Source: Candidatus Bathyarchaeota archaeon | Lineage (GTDB): Archaea > Thermoproteota > Bathyarchaeia > Bathyarchaeales > Bathycorpusculaceae | NCBI GenBank assembly: GCA_026014725.1 | Contig: JAOZHV010000029.1 | Span: 62,001 to 126,000, forward strand | Direction: 5' to 3' | DNA: 64,000 bases | In this document: in pieces, positions 5,312 to 27,933 of the stretch | How positions within the stretch are numbered: the first letter of the stretch is position 1 | How the letters are laid out: each line of letters begins with the position of its first letter | Made by a program: the position numbers and the translations under genes | Notes under the pieces: model-generated | Database searches by the model: none | What the model was told of the DNA's origin: nothing | The model's input: the letters and a program-made list of their open reading frames with translations, nothing else

Positions 5312-6154
5312 TCAACCGTTCCTCAGTAGGCGCAGAATTTCTTTTCTAGCTTCACCGATTGTAAGGGGCAGTTTCTCTTCTACAGGTAGACCGTCCTCTT
5401 TCTTTAGTACTTCGAAAAGATGTGTCAACCTCGGCGCGCGCAAGTTCACTTTGCGGATGAGCTCTGTGTCTGAAAATATGTCTTTAGGTGCTCCTTCCGA
5501 AACAAGTTTACCTTTATTGAGAATATAGAGTTTGTTGGCAAACAATGGTACCATGTCAACATCATGGGTTGCTAACAACAGAGTTATGCCTTTTTCCCTG
5601 TTCAACTTTAAAAGCAAATGCAAAATTTCGCTGGTGGCTCGCGGGTCAAGATTAGATGTAGGTTCATCCATGATTATAACTTCAGGTTGCATGGCCAATA
5701 CGCCTGCAAGCGCAACCCGTTTTTTTTGCCCCAGACTCAAGAAATGAGGTGGCTTCTCCTTCGATTCAATCATGCCAACGGTTTCTAACGCTTCATCAAC
5801 TATTTTTTTTACCTGCTCTGCTGATTGCCCAAGATTTAATGGTCCAAAAGCCACATCTTGCTTTACTGTGGGTGCGAAGAGCTGGTCGTTTGGGTCTTGA
5901 AAGACAAAGCCCACTCGTCGTCTAAGTTCAAGTAAGGCTTTCCCACTGTACTCTAAGGGTTTATCTTCAAAGTAAATTTTACCTGAGGTGGGTTTAAGAA
6001 TTCCGTTTAAATGGTTCAGAAGCGTTGTTTTTCCCGACCCGTTTGTGCCCAGTAGAGCGATTCGGTCACCTCTATCGAAGCCTAACGAAACATTATCCAA
6101 AGCTACTGTTCCATCTGAATATTGATATACGAGGTTCTCTACTCTAAACAACAT
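5312..6154 (-). CDS. cbiO: Cobalt ECF transporter ATPase
   Basis: 280-residue ABC ATPase of the energy-coupling-factor cobalt transporter CbiMNQO. It has a Walker A (GTNGSGKTT), Q-loop FVFQDPNDQLF typical of CbiO/EcfA, signature LSLGQKKRVALAG, Walker B VIIMDEPTSNLD and a switch His in LLATHDVD. I prefer the ATG at 6154 with GGAG upstream; a TTG at 6172 would add six residues overlapping cbiQ. Gene order is cbiM-cbiN-cbiQ-cbiO, the usual order for this transporter. Confidence 0.93.
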   Translation of the reverse strand: MLFRVENLVYQYSDGTVALDNVSLGFDRGDRIALLGTNGSGKTTLLNHLNGILKPTSGKIYFEDKPLEYSGKALLELRRRVGFVFQDPNDQLFAPTVKQDVAFGPLNLGQSAEQVKKIVDEALETVGMIESKEKPPHFLSLGQKKRVALAGVLAMQPEVIIMDEPTSNLDPRATSEILHLLLKLNREKGITLLLATHDVDMVPLFANKLYILNKGKLVSEGAPKDIFSDTELIRKVNLRAPRLTHLFEVLKKEDGLPVEEKLPLTIGEARKEILRLLRNG

Positions 6155-6983: not shown

Positions 6984-7274
6984 CTACGTAGTGCTCTTTA
7001 TTTCTTTTTTCGCTCGTTTTCCCCGTTCATAGCCCACGAAGTAGCCGATGATTACAGCTCCGATGGCTGCTTGCAAAGCAAACAGTAAACTTTCAATCTC
7101 GCCGCTTGGCGGCTCCCAAATGGGGCTAAACCATGGTTCGTATCCTGTATCAGAAATTGCGTCTTCAGCGCCGGCGTCCGCTCCACCAAACTCTGCGTTT
7201 GGCAAAAGAAGCAAGGGTGCCGCAAAGAGCACCACTACGATGGCTATTAGTACAATGTAGTATTTGCTTTTCAT
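6984..7274 (-). CDS. cbiN: Cobalt transport accessory protein
   Basis: 96-residue protein with one N-terminal and one C-terminal transmembrane helix separated by an exposed loop containing [11 protein letters not shown] and [24 protein letters not shown]. This is the CbiN signature; CbiN associates with CbiM and is needed for cobalt loading. The ATG overlaps the cbiM stop by 4 bases, implying coupled translation. Confidence 0.93.
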
Positions 7275-7960
7275 TGCATGCCCTCCGTTGCTCCTGTTCC
7301 AGGTAACTTTATCACTTTCAAAGCAGCCAACAGTTGACCTTTGTACTTAGCTAAGAAGTCAAAGAGTATAACTGCCAGTATACCTTCGCCAATCGCCAAT
7401 GGAATCTGAGTGATAGCAAAGATGCTGCCGAATTTCAGGAAAGCATCAAAGAATCCAGCGGCCGTTGGAAACGCTACAGCCAGTTGAACTGAGGTAGTGA
7501 CATAAGTGAACAGGTCGCCTAATGTTGCAGCAAGAAATATTCCAACTGGTCTTGGAAGATTTGCTTTCTTACAAACTACCCATATACCATATGCCAAAAA
7601 GGGTCCTGCAATACCCATTGAGAAAACGTTGGCTCCAAGAGTAGTTAAGCCTCCATGTGCTAAAAGTAAGGCTTGAAAAACAAGTACAATTAATGAAAGT
7701 ACAGAAGTTATTCCTGGCCCCACGATTACTGCGGATAAGCCTGCGCCAGTTGGGTGAGAACAACTTCCAGTTACAGATGGCAGTTTTAAGGCAGAGAGAA
7801 CAAATATGAATGCGCCCATGAGGGCAAGCAGAGGTTTTGATTCAGGGATTTTTTTAGTGACCTTGGTTAAACGGTAAACTCCATATGCCACGATAGGTAT
7901 TGCAATTATAAACCAAATTTCCCACCAAGGATGCGGCAGAAAGCCTTCCATTATATGCAT
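7271..7960 (-). CDS. cbiM: Cobalt ECF transporter substrate-binding membrane subunit
   Basis: 229-residue S-component for Co2+. It begins [13 protein letters not shown]: the N-terminal Met-His-Ile-Met is the conserved metal-binding N-terminus of CbiM, in which the amino group and His residues coordinate cobalt. The [20 protein letters not shown] segment near residue 65 is also diagnostic. First gene of the cbiMNQO unit. Upstream is a TATA box at 8001-8010 flanked by the shared motif annotated at 7988-8042. Confidence 0.95.
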
Positions 7961-7987
7961 TTGTTTCCTTTACCCCTTTGCTGGATA

Positions 7988-8042
7988 ATCCAACCTGTTA
8001 ACTTATAAATATTCGTTTAACTAAGGTTAAGCTTAGGTTGAA
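7988..8042 (-). promoter_or_regulatory. cbiM promoter with candidate cobalamin operator (copy 1)
   Basis: On the minus strand the TATA box ATTTATAAGT (8010-8001) should start transcription near 7981. It is framed by near-inverted arms: TTCAACCT at 8042-8035 and AGGTTGGAT at 7996-7988. Between them are TTAAC and GTTAAAC elements. The same ordered set (TCAACC, TTAAC, TTAAAC, TATA, AGGTYGGAT) with almost the same spacing recurs in front of btuF at 11519-11571. Shared elements covering both sides of the TATA box are what a repressor site would look like. Confidence 0.6.
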
Positions 8043-8058
8043 TTGCAATTTAGGTAAT

Positions 8059-9414
8059 TTACGACTTTTTCTGTTTAGCGGGTTTACATTTGAATGGTTT
8101 TTCTTCGGGTGTTTTTAAGTGACCTGTTGCCGTTTGGGTCTTTTGTGGCAATTGCGTTTTTTCTTTTGAAATATTAAGCAAGGATGGCAAGTCAGATTGT
8201 TGCTTAACGAAAATGGCGCCTTCCGCTTTCAACTCAAGCATAAGTTGCGTGGCTTTTCCATCTGTAAAGTCTCGGCTTTCGATTGGAACCTCGTCAATGA
8301 CATATGTTGGGATACCCTGTTTGAGTGCTTCTCTTGCCGCTTCCAAGTTCCTGAGGTTGCCTAAACCAAACGGAACAGAAGTAATAACAACTATGCTTGC
8401 ATTTTTTATCATTTCTATATTTGCTGCGTGAGCTTTATCAGTTATCGGAGAAAAGGGCGCTTCAGTAACTGCAGGTATTTTTAACAATTCGCAGGTGTCA
8501 TAATCGGAATCTAACAAGTTTAAGACGCCTGCTGTGACAACATAGCCTTCATCAACGAGAGCTTTCATAACAAGTGTTCCTGTTCCAGCACCGCAAATTA
8601 CGTGTATAGCGCATTTCGTTGCTATTGATGACTTTTTGGGCGAGATGGGAATGACATAGAGTGAATTGGTAACAAAATTCTCCCTGACAATCGCATCAAC
8701 CTGAAAGACTTCGCGTATGTTCTCGGTTGTGAGAACATCTCCAATTTTGCCTGAGGCGTAAATTTTTCCGTTCTTGAGCATGATGGCTGTGTTACAGTAT
8801 CGTGCTGCCATGTTTAGGTCGTGGAAGACTGCTATAACAATCAAGTTATCCTTGACGCAGAGGCTTTTTATGAGGTCCATAACCTCAAGTTGATTAATTA
8901 TGTCTAGGTGAGTCATAGGTTCGTCTAAGAGCAGGATTTTTGGTTCCTGCGCCAATGCGCGGGCAATGATAACTCTTTGGCGTTCTCCGCCGCTCAGTTC
9001 ATGTATGGGTCTGTTAGCTAAGTTCCATGTGTTAGTTAGTTCCATTGCTTTTCTTGCAATTTGGACGTCTTTGGGGGATTCCATTTGAAATGGTCCCATG
9101 TGAGGGTTGCGACCCATCAAGACAACATCCAAAACGGAGAAGTTAAAGCCGACAGCGCTTTCTTGTGGAACAACAGCCATTGTCTTGGCAACATCCACGG
9201 GTTTTAGAGAATAAATATCGGATTTATCAAGTAGTATCGACCCGCCGTGAGGCTTTAGCACTCTACTTATACTTTTTAGTAATGTCGTTTTTCCCGAACC
9301 ATTGGGACCTAAAATTCCCACGAAATCGCCAGGCTTTACTTGCAGGGTTACGTCTGAAAGAACTTTTATTGAGCCGTAACGGCAATCTATTCCATTTACG
9401 TTAAGAGTTACCAT
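8059..9414 (-). CDS. btuD: Corrinoid ABC transporter ATPase with extra C-terminal domain
   Basis: 451 residues. Residues 1-260 are a FecCD-partner ABC ATPase: Walker A GPNGSGKTT, Q-loop VVPQES, signature LSGGERQRV, Walker B ILLLDEPMTHLD and AVFHDLNMAARYC. Residues about 265-420 form a second domain starting AIHVICGAGTGTLVMKALVDEGY, with Rossmann-like alternation and DSDYDTCELL and SVPFGLGNLRN segments, followed by a Lys/Pro-rich tail. BtuD/FhuC ATPases are normally about 250-270 residues, so this is a fusion. The gene is 9 bases downstream of btuC; with btuC and btuF it makes a complete importer. Cobalamin specificity is inferred from context. Confidence 0.88.
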   Translation of the reverse strand: MVTLNVNGIDCRYGSIKVLSDVTLQVKPGDFVGILGPNGSGKTTLLKSISRVLKPHGGSILLDKSDIYSLKPVDVAKTMAVVPQESAVGFNFSVLDVVLMGRNPHMGPFQMESPKDVQIARKAMELTNTWNLANRPIHELSGGERQRVIIARALAQEPKILLLDEPMTHLDIINQLEVMDLIKSLCVKDNLIVIAVFHDLNMAARYCNTAIMLKNGKIYASGKIGDVLTTENIREVFQVDAIVRENFVTNSLYVIPISPKKSSIATKCAIHVICGAGTGTLVMKALVDEGYVVTAGVLNLLDSDYDTCELLKIPAVTEAPFSPITDKAHAANIEMIKNASIVVITSVPFGLGNLRNLEAAREALKQGIPTYVIDEVPIESRDFTDGKATQLMLELKAEGAIFVKQQSDLPSLLNISKEKTQLPQKTQTATGHLKTPEEKPFKCKPAKQKKS

Positions 9415-9423
9415 GATTTTTGC

Positions 9424-10503
9424 CTACATCTTATAGCTTAATCTCTTTCTTCTCAAAAGGAAAATGAAGAATGGCCCGCCTGCAAGAGCAGTTATTACTC
9501 CTACTGGTAATTCCGAGGCTCCCGTTATAACTCGGGCTATTGAATCGCAGATTACAAGGAAGATGGCGCCAATGATTACTGACGTGGGCAAGAGAATTCT
9601 GTGGTCAGGTCCAACAGCAAGTCGTGTTATGTGTGGAATCATTAAGCCTACAAAACCAATAAGCCCACTTATCGATACCGCCGCAGCAGTCATCATTGAA
9701 CCTAAAGCTAAAATAATTTTTTTGGTTCGGGCTGTGTTCACGCCTAAGTGTTGAGCTGTGTCTTCGCCTAAAGCAATCATGTTTAGTTCTCTGCTGTAAA
9801 AGTAAGATAAAATTATTCCAACAAAGATAAATGGGAAAATCGCAAAAATGTCTGACCAAGTAATGTTTGATATTCCACCTATCAGCCAAAAAACAAGAGC
9901 GTGAAGTTTGGCGTTTTGGCTTGTTACTTGCAGGATGTGAAATATTGCAGAGAGAAAAATGGTGACGGCTATTCCTGAAAGTAGCAAGGTCATGTCTGAA
10001 ACTCTGCTACTAACTCTTGCAATATTATAGACGATGAAAATAGTGATTAAGCCTCCTACGAAAGCAGAAATCTGAACAATAGGTAGACCAAGCAAGATAA
10101 TACTTGAACCGAAAACGATGGCTAATCCAGCTCCCAATACTGAACCAGAAGAAACGCCTAGCACAAAGGGGTCAGCCATTGGATTTTTGAAAACTCCTTG
10201 ATAAAGCACTCCTGAAGCTGCTAATCCAGCGCCGATGATTGCACCAGCCAATATTCTTGGAAAGCGAATTTGCATAATAATAGCTTGATTAACTGTGCTA
10301 AATGAGGAAGGGTCAATGCTTCCGTTTAAGAACGGAATTTGATTGCCGATGATATTGAGAATTTCAGAAAAAGAAATAGGTGCAAAACCAATGTCTAAAG
10401 CCACTATGACTGTTATCACAAGCGCCGCAATAAGCAGTAGTAGAGTTACTTTCCACCGCTTTGAACGCTGCTGATAGGTATTTTCGACATTAGTTTGTGC
10501 CAT
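9424..10503 (-). CDS. btuC: Corrinoid ABC transporter permease
   Basis: 359-residue FecCD-family permease with about ten transmembrane helices. Diagnostic segments are RFPRILAGAIIGAGLAASG, QGVFKNPMADPFVLGVSSG, GEDTAQHLGVNT and the C-terminal GLMIPHITRLAVGPDHR. It starts 10 bases after btuF on the minus strand. The family also moves Fe-siderophores; the cobalamin assignment is based on the surrounding cbi genes. Confidence 0.92.
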   Translation of the reverse strand: MAQTNVENTYQQRSKRWKVTLLLLIAALVITVIVALDIGFAPISFSEILNIIGNQIPFLNGSIDPSSFSTVNQAIIMQIRFPRILAGAIIGAGLAASGVLYQGVFKNPMADPFVLGVSSGSVLGAGLAIVFGSSIILLGLPIVQISAFVGGLITIFIVYNIARVSSRVSDMTLLLSGIAVTIFLSAIFHILQVTSQNAKLHALVFWLIGGISNITWSDIFAIFPFIFVGIILSYFYSRELNMIALGEDTAQHLGVNTARTKKIILALGSMMTAAAVSISGLIGFVGLMIPHITRLAVGPDHRILLPTSVIIGAIFLVICDSIARVITGASELPVGVITALAGGPFFIFLLRRKRLSYKM

Positions 10504-10513
10504 TTTTCACTAC

Positions 10514-11494
10514 TTACTCTGGAGGAGTTATAAGTGTTGGGTACAGACACGCTGCAACTGCTTGGACCTGGTCACCAACTCGCGGACCTGGCTGATTAAA
10601 GAGGTCTTGTTCAACAACAAATAGTCTGTTGTTCACTATTGCATCAATAGTGTTCCATCCTGACCTTGCTTTCACGTCATCTACACTGCCATAAGATGGT
10701 GTTCCAGTTCCCATGTTTGTTGGTAGCAGTATTACGCTTGGGTTGCGTTGAACTATTACTTCTGAACTTGTAGTTGGGTATTGGCCTTCTAAGTCAGCGA
10801 AAATATTGATTCCTCCTGCTTTTGCTATTACATCGTTTATCCAAGAGGTAGAACCTGCAGTCATGATTCCTGACTCGTCAAAGTAAACTTCGTAGTAAAC
10901 GGTTGGTTTGTCAGCAATGTTTGCGGCTGCGATTTTTGATTGAATATCGCTGATTTGGCTGCTTATTTGGTTAATTAGCTCGTTTGCTTTATCTTGTGCT
11001 CCTGTGGCTTTTCCAAGCATTGTTATGTCTTTGTAGATGTCGTTAATGCTGTTGGGGTTTGTTGTAATCACCTTATAGCCCATGCTTCGCAGATTGGGTG
11101 TAATTTTTCCTTCATGTATTGTTGTTGCCAAAATCAAATCAGGTTCTAAAGAAACTATTGTTTCAATATTGGGTGTCGAAAAGCCGCCTATGTTAGTCAT
11201 GTTGCCTGCTTCAAACCATGCAGAGAAATCATAGGGGTAATCATCATATTGAGTTACACCGACAACTTTGTCTCCAACGCCTAAAGCGAAGATAAATTGA
11301 GTGTTTGCTGGTGCCATAGATACAATGCGTTGCGGCACAGTATCCAATGTGGTTACATAGCCCAAGTCGTCTGTTATAGTTATGGGTCCTTGAGTGGCTG
11401 ATTGTTGGCTGAAATAGTAAATGTAGACAATTGCTACTGAAGAAACCAAAACAACTACGAGTATTAGTGCGTAGAGTATGTGTTTTGTGTTCAT
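10514..11494 (-). CDS. btuF: Corrinoid ABC transporter substrate-binding protein
   Basis: 326-residue class III solute-binding protein. A single N-terminal hydrophobic helix (about residues 6-28) anchors it outside the membrane; no lipobox Cys is evident. The mature domain has PQRIVSMAPANTQFIFALG, the usual BtuF start, and ends VEQDLFNQPGPRVGDQVQAVAACLYP. First gene of the btuFCD operon, divergent from the winged-helix regulator with only 80 bases between the start codons. Confidence 0.9.
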   Translation of the reverse strand: MNTKHILYALILVVVLVSSVAIVYIYYFSQQSATQGPITITDDLGYVTTLDTVPQRIVSMAPANTQFIFALGVGDKVVGVTQYDDYPYDFSAWFEAGNMTNIGGFSTPNIETIVSLEPDLILATTIHEGKITPNLRSMGYKVITTNPNSINDIYKDITMLGKATGAQDKANELINQISSQISDIQSKIAAANIADKPTVYYEVYFDESGIMTAGSTSWINDVIAKAGGINIFADLEGQYPTTSSEVIVQRNPSVILLPTNMGTGTPSYGSVDDVKARSGWNTIDAIVNNRLFVVEQDLFNQPGPRVGDQVQAVAACLYPTLITPPE

Positions 11495-11518
11495 TTAATT
11501 CACCTTATAGGATGGTTT

Positions 11519-11571
11519 ATCCGACCTAAGCCTTATTAACTTTTGTTTAATAAACGTTAAATCGGGTTGAG
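11519..11571. promoter_or_regulatory. btuF/regulator divergent promoter with candidate cobalamin operator (copy 2)
   Basis: The plus strand reads ATCCGACCT (11519-11527), GTTTAA (11545-11550), GTTAA (11556-11560) and GGTTGA (11565-11570). These line up with ATCCAACCT, GTTTAA, GTTAA, GGTTGA in the cbiM promoter with gaps of 17/18, 5/5 and 4/5 bases. On the minus strand TTAATAAGG serves as TATA box for btuF. On the plus strand the TTTAATAAA palindrome lies about 25 bases before the regulator ATG, so that mRNA is probably leaderless. The regulator could thus repress itself and btuF from one site. Confidence 0.6.
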
Positions 11572-11574
11572 TGA

Positions 11575-12408
11575 ATGGCTAAGCAACATCAAAGTCTCCT
11601 CTTAAAAGACAAAGGGGAATTCACCAAATTTCAAATTCTCTTCGAAATAATGCGTAACCAACCACACATCAAACAAAAAGACATAAGCGACAAGCTCGGC
11701 ATAACCATTCAAGCCATTTCGAAATACTTCAAGAAACTCACTAGAGAAGGACTACTTGAAGCAGGCTCAGAACGCGCAGATTACCACTTAACACCCAAAG
11801 GTGTAACGAAGCTTCGAGAAGACATGCGTAACCTCGAAGCTTACATCAACGACCTTAAGCATGACTTAAAAATAGAACATGCTTGGCCAGCAATTGCCAC
11901 TCAACCCGTCAAGGCAGGGCAAGAAATCGGTTTAATCATGAAAGAAGGGGTCATGTACACTGTGCCACTGGGGAGTCCTCTTGCAGAAGCCAAAGGGATA
12001 GCGCTTGTCGATGCCAATCCGGGTGACGATTTGGGCTTAAGAGACCTTCACGGCAAGGTGAAAGTAAAAAAAGGAAAAATCCTCATCGTTAAACTGCCTA
12101 GCATACGTAAAGGTGGTTCAAGAGCAACAGACCTAGAGAAAATCAAAGCGCTCTACAACGAGTTCAACCCCGACAGAGTAGGCGTGATGGGTGCTGTGGG
12201 CAGAGCAGTTCTAAACAAGTTAGGGCTAAAGGCGAACATAGAATTTGGAATCAGCCGCTCAGCAGCCATCGCCGCATCAAGAGGCCTGAACGTTTTGGTC
12301 TTGGTTGTTGGCAGAATGGTTAACCGCATGATACAGGAAATAGACCAGATCAATATGAAAACCGCAGACAACATAATCTACGAAATAAAAGATGCCCAAA
12401 TTACTTAA
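11575..12408 (+). CDS. Winged-helix transcriptional regulator, candidate cobalamin regulator
   Basis: 277 residues. An N-terminal MarR/Lrp-like winged helix (about residues 15-85: IKQKDISDKLGITIQAISKYFKKLTREGLL, then YHLTPKG) precedes an archaeal-type effector domain of about 180 residues with VKAGQEIGLIMKEGVMYTV and GDDLGLRDLHGKVKV segments and a C-terminal AVGRAVLNKLGLK region. I do not recognise a characterised member. The divergent position next to btuFCD, and a promoter motif shared with cbiM, suggest it senses corrinoid or cobalt status; the ligand is unknown. Probably a leaderless transcript. Confidence 0.8.
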   Translation: MAKQHQSLLLKDKGEFTKFQILFEIMRNQPHIKQKDISDKLGITIQAISKYFKKLTREGLLEAGSERADYHLTPKGVTKLREDMRNLEAYINDLKHDLKIEHAWPAIATQPVKAGQEIGLIMKEGVMYTVPLGSPLAEAKGIALVDANPGDDLGLRDLHGKVKVKKGKILIVKLPSIRKGGSRATDLEKIKALYNEFNPDRVGVMGAVGRAVLNKLGLKANIEFGISRSAAIAASRGLNVLVLVVGRMVNRMIQEIDQINMKTADNIIYEIKDAQIT

Positions 12409-12996: not shown

Positions 12997-13205
12997 CGGA
13001 TCACCGATTCTGCGTTCCTTTTTAGCGCTAATTTAATATAAGCTTTTCCAAGTGTCAAGAAAATTGAAAAAGCAAGCGAGTTAGAATGTTCTCAGCGGAT
13101 CGCTCAATCATGTTCTGTGAGGTCGCGGAGGCTCACATAGGTCTAAAGCGCCTTTTATTTATGGACGGTTTGGCGTTTTGTTGCAAGGCAGTTTTTGCTG
13201 TTTTG

Positions 13206-13320
13206 CGGTAGACCCTATCCCCCTATATGAAGGCGGAATTTTCAGCATGCTTTTGGCTTGAAAAGCGGTAATTTCACCTACCCCTCTATAGTTTCTGCAT
13301 AGAATTTCTAATAGCATCCA
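13206..13320. repeat. Dispersed non-coding element, copy A
   Basis: About 115 bases homologous by eye to 27756-27870. Shared blocks in order: TAGACCC, TCCCCCTATAT, AAGG, ATTTTCA, CATG, TGGCT, AAAA, CACCT, CCTCT, GTTTC, TAGAA and AATAG, with very few gaps. Both copies lie in otherwise gene-free DNA. No open frame is conserved between them, so an RNA or mobile-element relic is more likely than coding. Confidence 0.55.
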
Positions 13321-27604: not shown

Positions 27605-27933
27605 CCATAAACCTCCTTTGCATTCTTATTGGCGGTTGTGTGTAAAAGTTTTTCTCAAAGAAACAGCCAACCATTGGAGCGTTTAACTTCTGTTTGATAG
27701 AATATCTTTTTCAACAAACCCATGACATTTGATGTTGCGAAAAGTTTGTTGCTCTGCCATAGACCCCCTCCCCCTATATAAAGGGCTGATTTTTCAACAT
27801 GTCTCTGGCTCAAAAAATCGCCAAAGCACCTGCCTCTTAGGTTTCAATTTAGAACCCCAATAGTGTCTAATATGCCATGCGAAAAACAAGTGAAAAATAA
27901 TAAAGGAAAAAAGAAAAAGCGCCAGAGCTTATT
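27605..27933. other. Gene-free region downstream of dnaK with dispersed element copy B
   Basis: Contains the upstream region of the 34-residue zinc miniprotein and the element at 27756-27870. The remainder has no open frame with a start and ribosome-binding site, and no tRNA-like fold that I could find. Confidence 0.6.
27756..27870. repeat. Dispersed non-coding element, copy B
   Basis: Counterpart of 13206-13320, roughly 65-70% identical by eye over 110 bases. The conserved core is TAGACCCxxTCCCCCTATAT followed by AAGG, an ATTTTCAxCATG block and GTTTCxxxxTAGAA. The CCCCCTATATAAAGGG section can form a short hairpin. It lies just downstream of dnaK in the same plus-strand orientation as copy A. 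Confidence 0.55.

Follow-up and report, generated by a model that had tools for sequence, protein, structure and literature searches.

Bacterial cobalamin riboswitch regulons comprise cbiMNQO, btuFCD, cobaltochelatase and vitamin B12 synthesis genes. The same kind of gene set is found behind a composite promoter site in uncultured archaea, the Bathyarchaeia; this site is described here from a 64,000-nucleotide stretch (the window) belonging to contig 29 of a 2.56-Mb archaeal metagenome-assembled genome (Candidatus Bathyarchaeota), together with its presumed regulator, encoded from position 11575. In contrast to the riboswitch regulons, this system would consist of a protein and DNA sites: no Rfam match to a cobalamin riboswitch reaches the gathering threshold in the window, a search at E<=1 within 7900-11700 returned nothing except a sub-threshold gyrA RNA, and the leader at the locus is only about 20 nt, all in agreement with the initial annotation of this DNA, which had seen no riboswitch-like leader at the two promoters concerned. 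In Halobacterium salinarum, TrmB controls the cob/cbi genes, and a second regulator was inferred, for which VNG0156C, VNG1899G or VNG1179C were the favoured candidates (PMC3794607). Like the role proposed for the 11575 regulator, this is archaeal protein control of B12 genes, but TrmB belongs to another family and regulates globally in response to sugar. In the open-licence literature searched, TrmB was the only archaeal protein regulator of B12 genes found, and nothing was found that linked Bathyarchaeia, cobalamin and a transcriptional regulator. The MarR-family repressors FabT, PcaV and BldR share with the 11575 system the winged-helix fold, a divergent gene and a palindromic site, whereas the 11575 regulator has about 180 extra residues with the domain DUF7839 and gave no match in a sequence search of the PDB. 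The nickel repressor NikR also controls metal uptake, but is a ribbon-helix-helix protein, while the 11575 product has a winged helix.

We propose, at a probability of about 0.72, that the 11575 product is a dedicated cobalt/cobalamin transcription factor, namely an autoregulated corrinoid-responsive repressor acting on the composite site. The protein, a MarR-type winged helix joined to DUF7839 as the putative sensor domain, would bind directly, as a dimer or as two dimers, to the core TTTAACtnnAGTTAA just upstream of the transcription factor B (TFB) recognition element (BRE) and TATA box of the target gene, to the half-site AGGTTGAA beyond the core, and to TGGATWATCCA between the TATA box and the transcription start. 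With plentiful corrinoid it would most likely repress cbiMNQO (cobalt uptake), btuFCD (corrinoid uptake), chlID/cobN (cobalt insertion) and its own gene, and it would be released when corrinoid is scarce; in archaea, the regulator would then fill the role that the cobalamin riboswitch has in bacteria. That the 11575 gene encodes a dedicated regulator, as the initial annotation had suggested, is strongly supported by comparative genomics, because its co-occurrence with the site is perfect, its divergence with cbiM or btuF is conserved, the regulon is coherently related to cobalt and B12, and an independent linkage exists in haloarchaea.

The evidence for co-occurrence comes from 91 genomes of the window's GTDB family, of which 43 carry the regulator and 48 do not. 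These were searched with R1, a 65-bp sequence-only profile built from 28 sites (27 adjoining the regulator, plus the cbiM copy of the window), at a match threshold of E<=1e-5. R1 sites were found in 43/43 regulator-bearing genomes as opposed to 2/48 regulator-less ones (Fisher p 5e-24), and the two regulator-less genomes with a match, G023 and G024, are fragmented into 500 and 250 contigs, respectively. As most regulator-adjacent promoters were training data for R1, the fair test lies in sites away from the regulator, which, among the matches listed, occur in at least 31 of the 43 regulator genomes and at least 2 of the 48 others (Fisher p 3e-12). The initial annotation had named beforehand the outcome that would speak against it, namely that cbiM/btuF orthologues lack the motif upstream in genomes with the regulator; the motif recurs there. 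CbiM itself (E<=1e-40) is restricted to regulator-bearing genomes (36/43 versus 0/48). In 29 of the 30 loci examined, a spacer of ~90 bp separates the regulator from its divergent neighbour, which is cbiM, a cbiM paralogue or btuF; the flank of L015 shows no such neighbour, though on that side a longer record of this contig contains a NicO gene and a cbiM paralogue. Gene order is in agreement in named Bathyarchaeota records of close relatives, including Bathycorpusculum, and only a few genomes (G000, G026, G029 and G030) have btuFCD between cbiM and the regulator. Outside the window's family, R1 sites were found at L179, L180, L187 and L195, and in relatives of Bathyarchaeum tardum matches are located before the regulator, in the regulator-chlID spacer and before cobN; G227 has a weak match.

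In the window, cbiM-cbiN-cbiQ-cbiO run on the minus strand from 7960 down to 5312, and btuF-btuC-btuD, also on the minus strand, from 11494 down to 8059:

7271..7960, minus strand: cbiM, S component of the energy-coupling factor cobalt transporter (TIGR00123, 303 bits), followed by cbiN, cbiQ and cbiO.
8059..9414, minus strand: btuD, ATPase with a C-terminal extension (PRK09536 corrinoid ABC ATPase, 329 bits, below cut-off).
9424..10503, minus strand: btuC, permease (PF01032; PRK09535, 313 bits, below cut-off).
10514..11494, minus strand: btuF-type corrinoid-binding protein, first gene of btuFCD (PF01497; BtuF-like NCBIfam matches below cut-off).
11575..12408, plus strand: regulator, 277 residues, with a MarR/HTH_24 winged helix (17-62) and DUF7839 (164-260), from Pfam, AlphaFold and Foldseek matches to MarR.

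The regulon was surveyed in the flanks of sixty stretches picked by score and not by gene, and the gene starting to the left of each site was recorded; some counts are lower bounds, taken from the matches listed. At the 83 sites without the regulator on the right, the left gene was btuF-like in 31 cases and a ChlI/ChlD-type putative cobaltochelatase (TIGR02442) in 18, followed by a type I phosphodiesterase (6), cbiM (4) and a regulator paralogue (3); btuC, cobN, nicO and a CfbC-like NifH-NifD fusion were found once each, and the remainder were unassigned or single cases. The regulon comprises roughly 3 to 17 sites. In the window's genome, a third good site precedes its own cobaltochelatase (G000:C59:322873, E 1.2e-6), and a fourth, weaker one (L101, G000:C17:30088) has neither a clear target gene on the left nor an Rfam match. 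The phosphodiesterase, of ~432 residues (PF01663) and often divergent to btuF, repeatedly adjoins the operator (L131:3084-4379; also L133, L149, L152, L155, L156 and others) and is, speculatively, a candidate cobamide-processing enzyme. A DUF4430 protein is encoded behind the operator at L153:2197-2982; as DUF4430 occurs in transcobalamin-like proteins, it is possibly a surface corrinoid binder. The CfbC-like NifH-NifD fusion lies behind the operator at L114:3650-5872.

The independent linkage to B12 was found in haloarchaea, five plasmid records of which carry relatives of the regulator with about 31% identity, all with DUF7839. In Halococcus dombrowskii, Halorussus aquaticus and Haladaptatus halobius the DUF7839-MarR gene is divergent to cbiT-cbiL-cbiF-cbiG-cobJ. 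R1 had no match in the haloarchaeal loci, hence conservation of the DNA motif itself does not extend to these. An invariant TAAAACAATTTTGGTTGT box, a candidate haloarchaeal operator, is present upstream of cbiT in these three genera (spacer 5840-5870, L199-L201). The DUF7839 profile also matches in the M. jannaschii, H. volcanii and M. acetivorans controls.

The regulator family is highly conserved, with a mean column identity of 82% among 24 proteins. DUF7839 (PF25211) is recognized in residues 164-260 with 68.8 bits, against a Pfam gathering score of 27 bits, and the winged helix scores above cut-off as HTH_24 (37.4 bits) and MarR_2 (32.8 bits). With 277 residues and an extra C-terminal domain, the protein departs from the compact MarR format of ~140 residues with helices as the dimer interface, and it is hence termed MarR-like rather than a canonical MarR. 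The Pfam scan of the regulator revealed neither a B12-binding domain nor a MerR helix-turn-helix (HTH), as would mark CarH or LitR. In the AlphaFold model the predicted local distance difference test score (pLDDT) is 81, and 87 for the C-terminal domain alone; the HTH part matches MarR structures in Foldseek (FabT, MarR and BldR), and the metal sensors AdcR and ZitR are among the matches. The C-terminal domain gave no match to the PDB at E<=0.001, and its weak Foldseek similarity to tetrapyrrole methylase domains (3hh1, E 0.023, TM score 0.62 on the target; CbiL; CysG) is the only structural hint to its nature. No functional description of DUF7839 was found in the open-licence literature searched. 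Very tentatively, the domain might be a derived tetrapyrrole-methylase-like sensor of corrinoids or corrin precursors, which would make the regulator an archaea-wide protein counterpart, in Bathyarchaeia and Halobacteria, of the bacterial cobalamin riboswitch, although this is rather doubtful.

The effector could also be Co(II), or Ni/Co, in which case the same regulator and sites would control metal uptake. The regulator gene has cbiMNQO as its most frequent partner, the Ni/Co transporter NicO has a site, and AdcR and ZitR are MarR-type metal sensors, yet the targets include btuF, btuC and chlID/cobN, and the haloarchaeal homologues face an operon for corrin-ring synthesis. Furthermore, the sole invariant histidine is H31, located in the HTH, and no cysteine column is conserved, which speaks against a classical metal sensor. 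A metal effector is on the whole unlikely, and a corrinoid would be the better candidate.

The site has a rigid geometry. Regulator-adjacent spacers share one architecture, namely TGGATWATCCAnCC, 3-5 nt, CTTATAAA (the TATA box of the left gene), 6 nt, TTTAACtnnAGTTAA, 3-4 nt and AGGTTGAA, so that the order read from the target gene is half-site, core palindrome, BRE, TATA, second palindrome, start. The target TATA starts 11-12 nt from the core palindrome in 86/91 sites, and the centre of the TGGATWATCCA palindrome, where recognizable, lies 14-17 nt past the start of TATA in most cases. The elements in the window are as follows:

7979..8043, plus strand: composite operator/promoter site of cbiM, with the target gene on the minus strand (R1 63.1 bits, E 5e-17 genome-wide).
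7982..7992, no strand: palindrome TGGATAATCCA, between the cbiM TATA box and the predicted start site, conserved in most cbiM, btuF and chlID sites.
8002..8010, minus strand: cbiM TATA box, TTTATAAG as read on that strand, at -11/-12 from the TTTAAC core in 86/91 sites.
8016..8030, no strand: core palindrome TTTAACTAAGGTTAA of the cbiM copy, the most informative columns of the composite site.
8035..8042, plus strand: extra half-site AGGTTGAA of the cbiM copy, at fixed spacing, present before chlID and btuF elsewhere too.
11511..11570, plus strand: second composite site, with btuF on the left and the regulator on the right (R1 46.9 bits, E 5.6e-12 genome-wide).
11514..11522, no strand: GGTTTATCC, by sequence a degenerate copy of the first palindrome.
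11546..11560, no strand: core palindrome TTTAATAAACGTTAA, which from sequence and spacing likely doubles as the regulator's TATA box (25-29 nt ahead of the ATG).
11564..11570, plus strand: half-site GGGTTGA of the btuF/regulator site.

The cbiM copy retains AGGTTGAA with no divergent gene beyond it, hence this half-site is more than a component of the regulator's promoter. The consensus of 76 sites with left genes other than cbiM or the regulator is TATAAA-cTT-TTTAACt.AAGTTAA...AgGTTGA, so that the elements are not mere leftovers from a single ancestral promoter. We read GGTTGGA, AGTTAAA and GGTTGAA as possible variants of a common half-site, RGTTRRA. The elements do flank a TATA box, as originally described, but it serves the gene on the left (cbiM or btuF), whereas the TATA that the regulator itself likely uses overlaps with the TTTAAC palindrome. 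The outer pair had been taken for an inverted repeat, a proposal that was given up: the spacing between the outer elements varies, and the conserved symmetry lies in two internal palindromes, TGGATWATCCA (7982-7992) and TTTAACtnnAGTTAA (8016-8030), to which the half-site AGGTTGAA is added. Second regulator copies beside chlID in L121, L123 and L126 (G027, G030 and G028) have sites with the core palindrome and without TGGATWATCCA.

The archaeal activator Ptr2 has its site just upstream of the BRE. The core palindrome likewise ends immediately upstream of the BRE and keeps a fixed spacing to TATA, so the regulator might instead be an activator that, from the core upstream, recruits TATA-binding protein and TFB; plentiful B12 would then inactivate or release it. 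Repression accounts better for the second palindrome, which many targets have between the TATA box and the start site, and for the overlap of the core with the regulator's own likely TATA; activation is an improbable, if still serious, option. Because sites are present on both sides of TATA and the core overlaps the probable TATA of the regulator, an autoregulated repressor fits the arrangement.

A different transcription factor might bind the sites, with the DUF7839 gene as a co-regulated member of the regulon, since the regulator promoter is itself a target and co-occurrence does not prove binding. However, this gene is the only recurrent one at the sites with a recognized DNA-binding domain, it is almost always at a site, its presence correlates perfectly with that of the sites (43/43 versus 2/48), and the B12 linkage in haloarchaea is independent; we regard another factor as quite improbable.

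Within the window, the four elements of the initial annotation (ATCCRACCT, GTTTAA, GTTAA and GGTTGA) are indeed shared by both promoters in the same order, and the complete pattern has no matches other than those at 7988 and 11519. The gap sizes hold, with 18/5/5 in the cbiM copy and 17/5/4 in the btuF/regulator copy, although 17 and 18 had been assigned to the wrong copies. ATCCRACCT-N14-22-GTTTAA has exactly 2 matches in 64 kb, against 0.01 expected, but the elements were picked after both copies had been seen, hence the pair requires the fairer null of all intergenic pairs: aligned locally, the two promoters score 26, a value that 14/3403 pairs of intergenic pieces equal or exceed (shuffle p 0.0025), and no similarity was found in the flanks beyond the sites. 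The highest-scoring pair, at 48 far above all others, consists of the intergenic stretches 13196-13296 and 27761-27861. Matches of a loose palindrome pattern in the window's own genome are no better than those of a reversed control (8+7 versus 7+6), so that single short elements are uninformative. Taken alone, the similarity of the two promoters is suggestive only, and it is the recurrence in relatives that settles the reality of the motif. That only shared promoter elements are involved, or that the cbiM promoter was duplicated when btuFCD was inserted, would agree with the modest similarity within the window and with btuFCD lying between cbiM and the regulator in few genomes, but is ruled out as the whole explanation and hardly credible at all, as the flanks are dissimilar, in many genomes the site also stands before unrelated genes (chlID, cobN and nicO), and it is nearly absent from regulator-less genomes.

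Several observations weigh against a dedicated corrinoid-responsive repressor. The R1 profile is partly an ordinary promoter (TATA/BRE), and the core occupies a position also used by archaeal activators; for about one in four non-adjacent sites, no B12-related target could be named; and the site adjoining the regulator is eroded in two relatives with btuFCD inserted (L008 and L011). In addition, the DUF7839 relatives of Haloarcula pelagica and Natronorubrum bangense (L197 and L198) are not beside B12 genes, hence the DUF7839 family is not exclusively linked to B12.

For the control of B12 supply in archaea that lack cobalamin riboswitches, a candidate protein family, operator and regulon can now be named. 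The findings also provide a functional hypothesis for DUF7839, a Pfam domain of unknown function, and flag new candidate B12-related genes, such as the phosphodiesterase. Cultivable haloarchaea carry the same protein beside a cbi operon.

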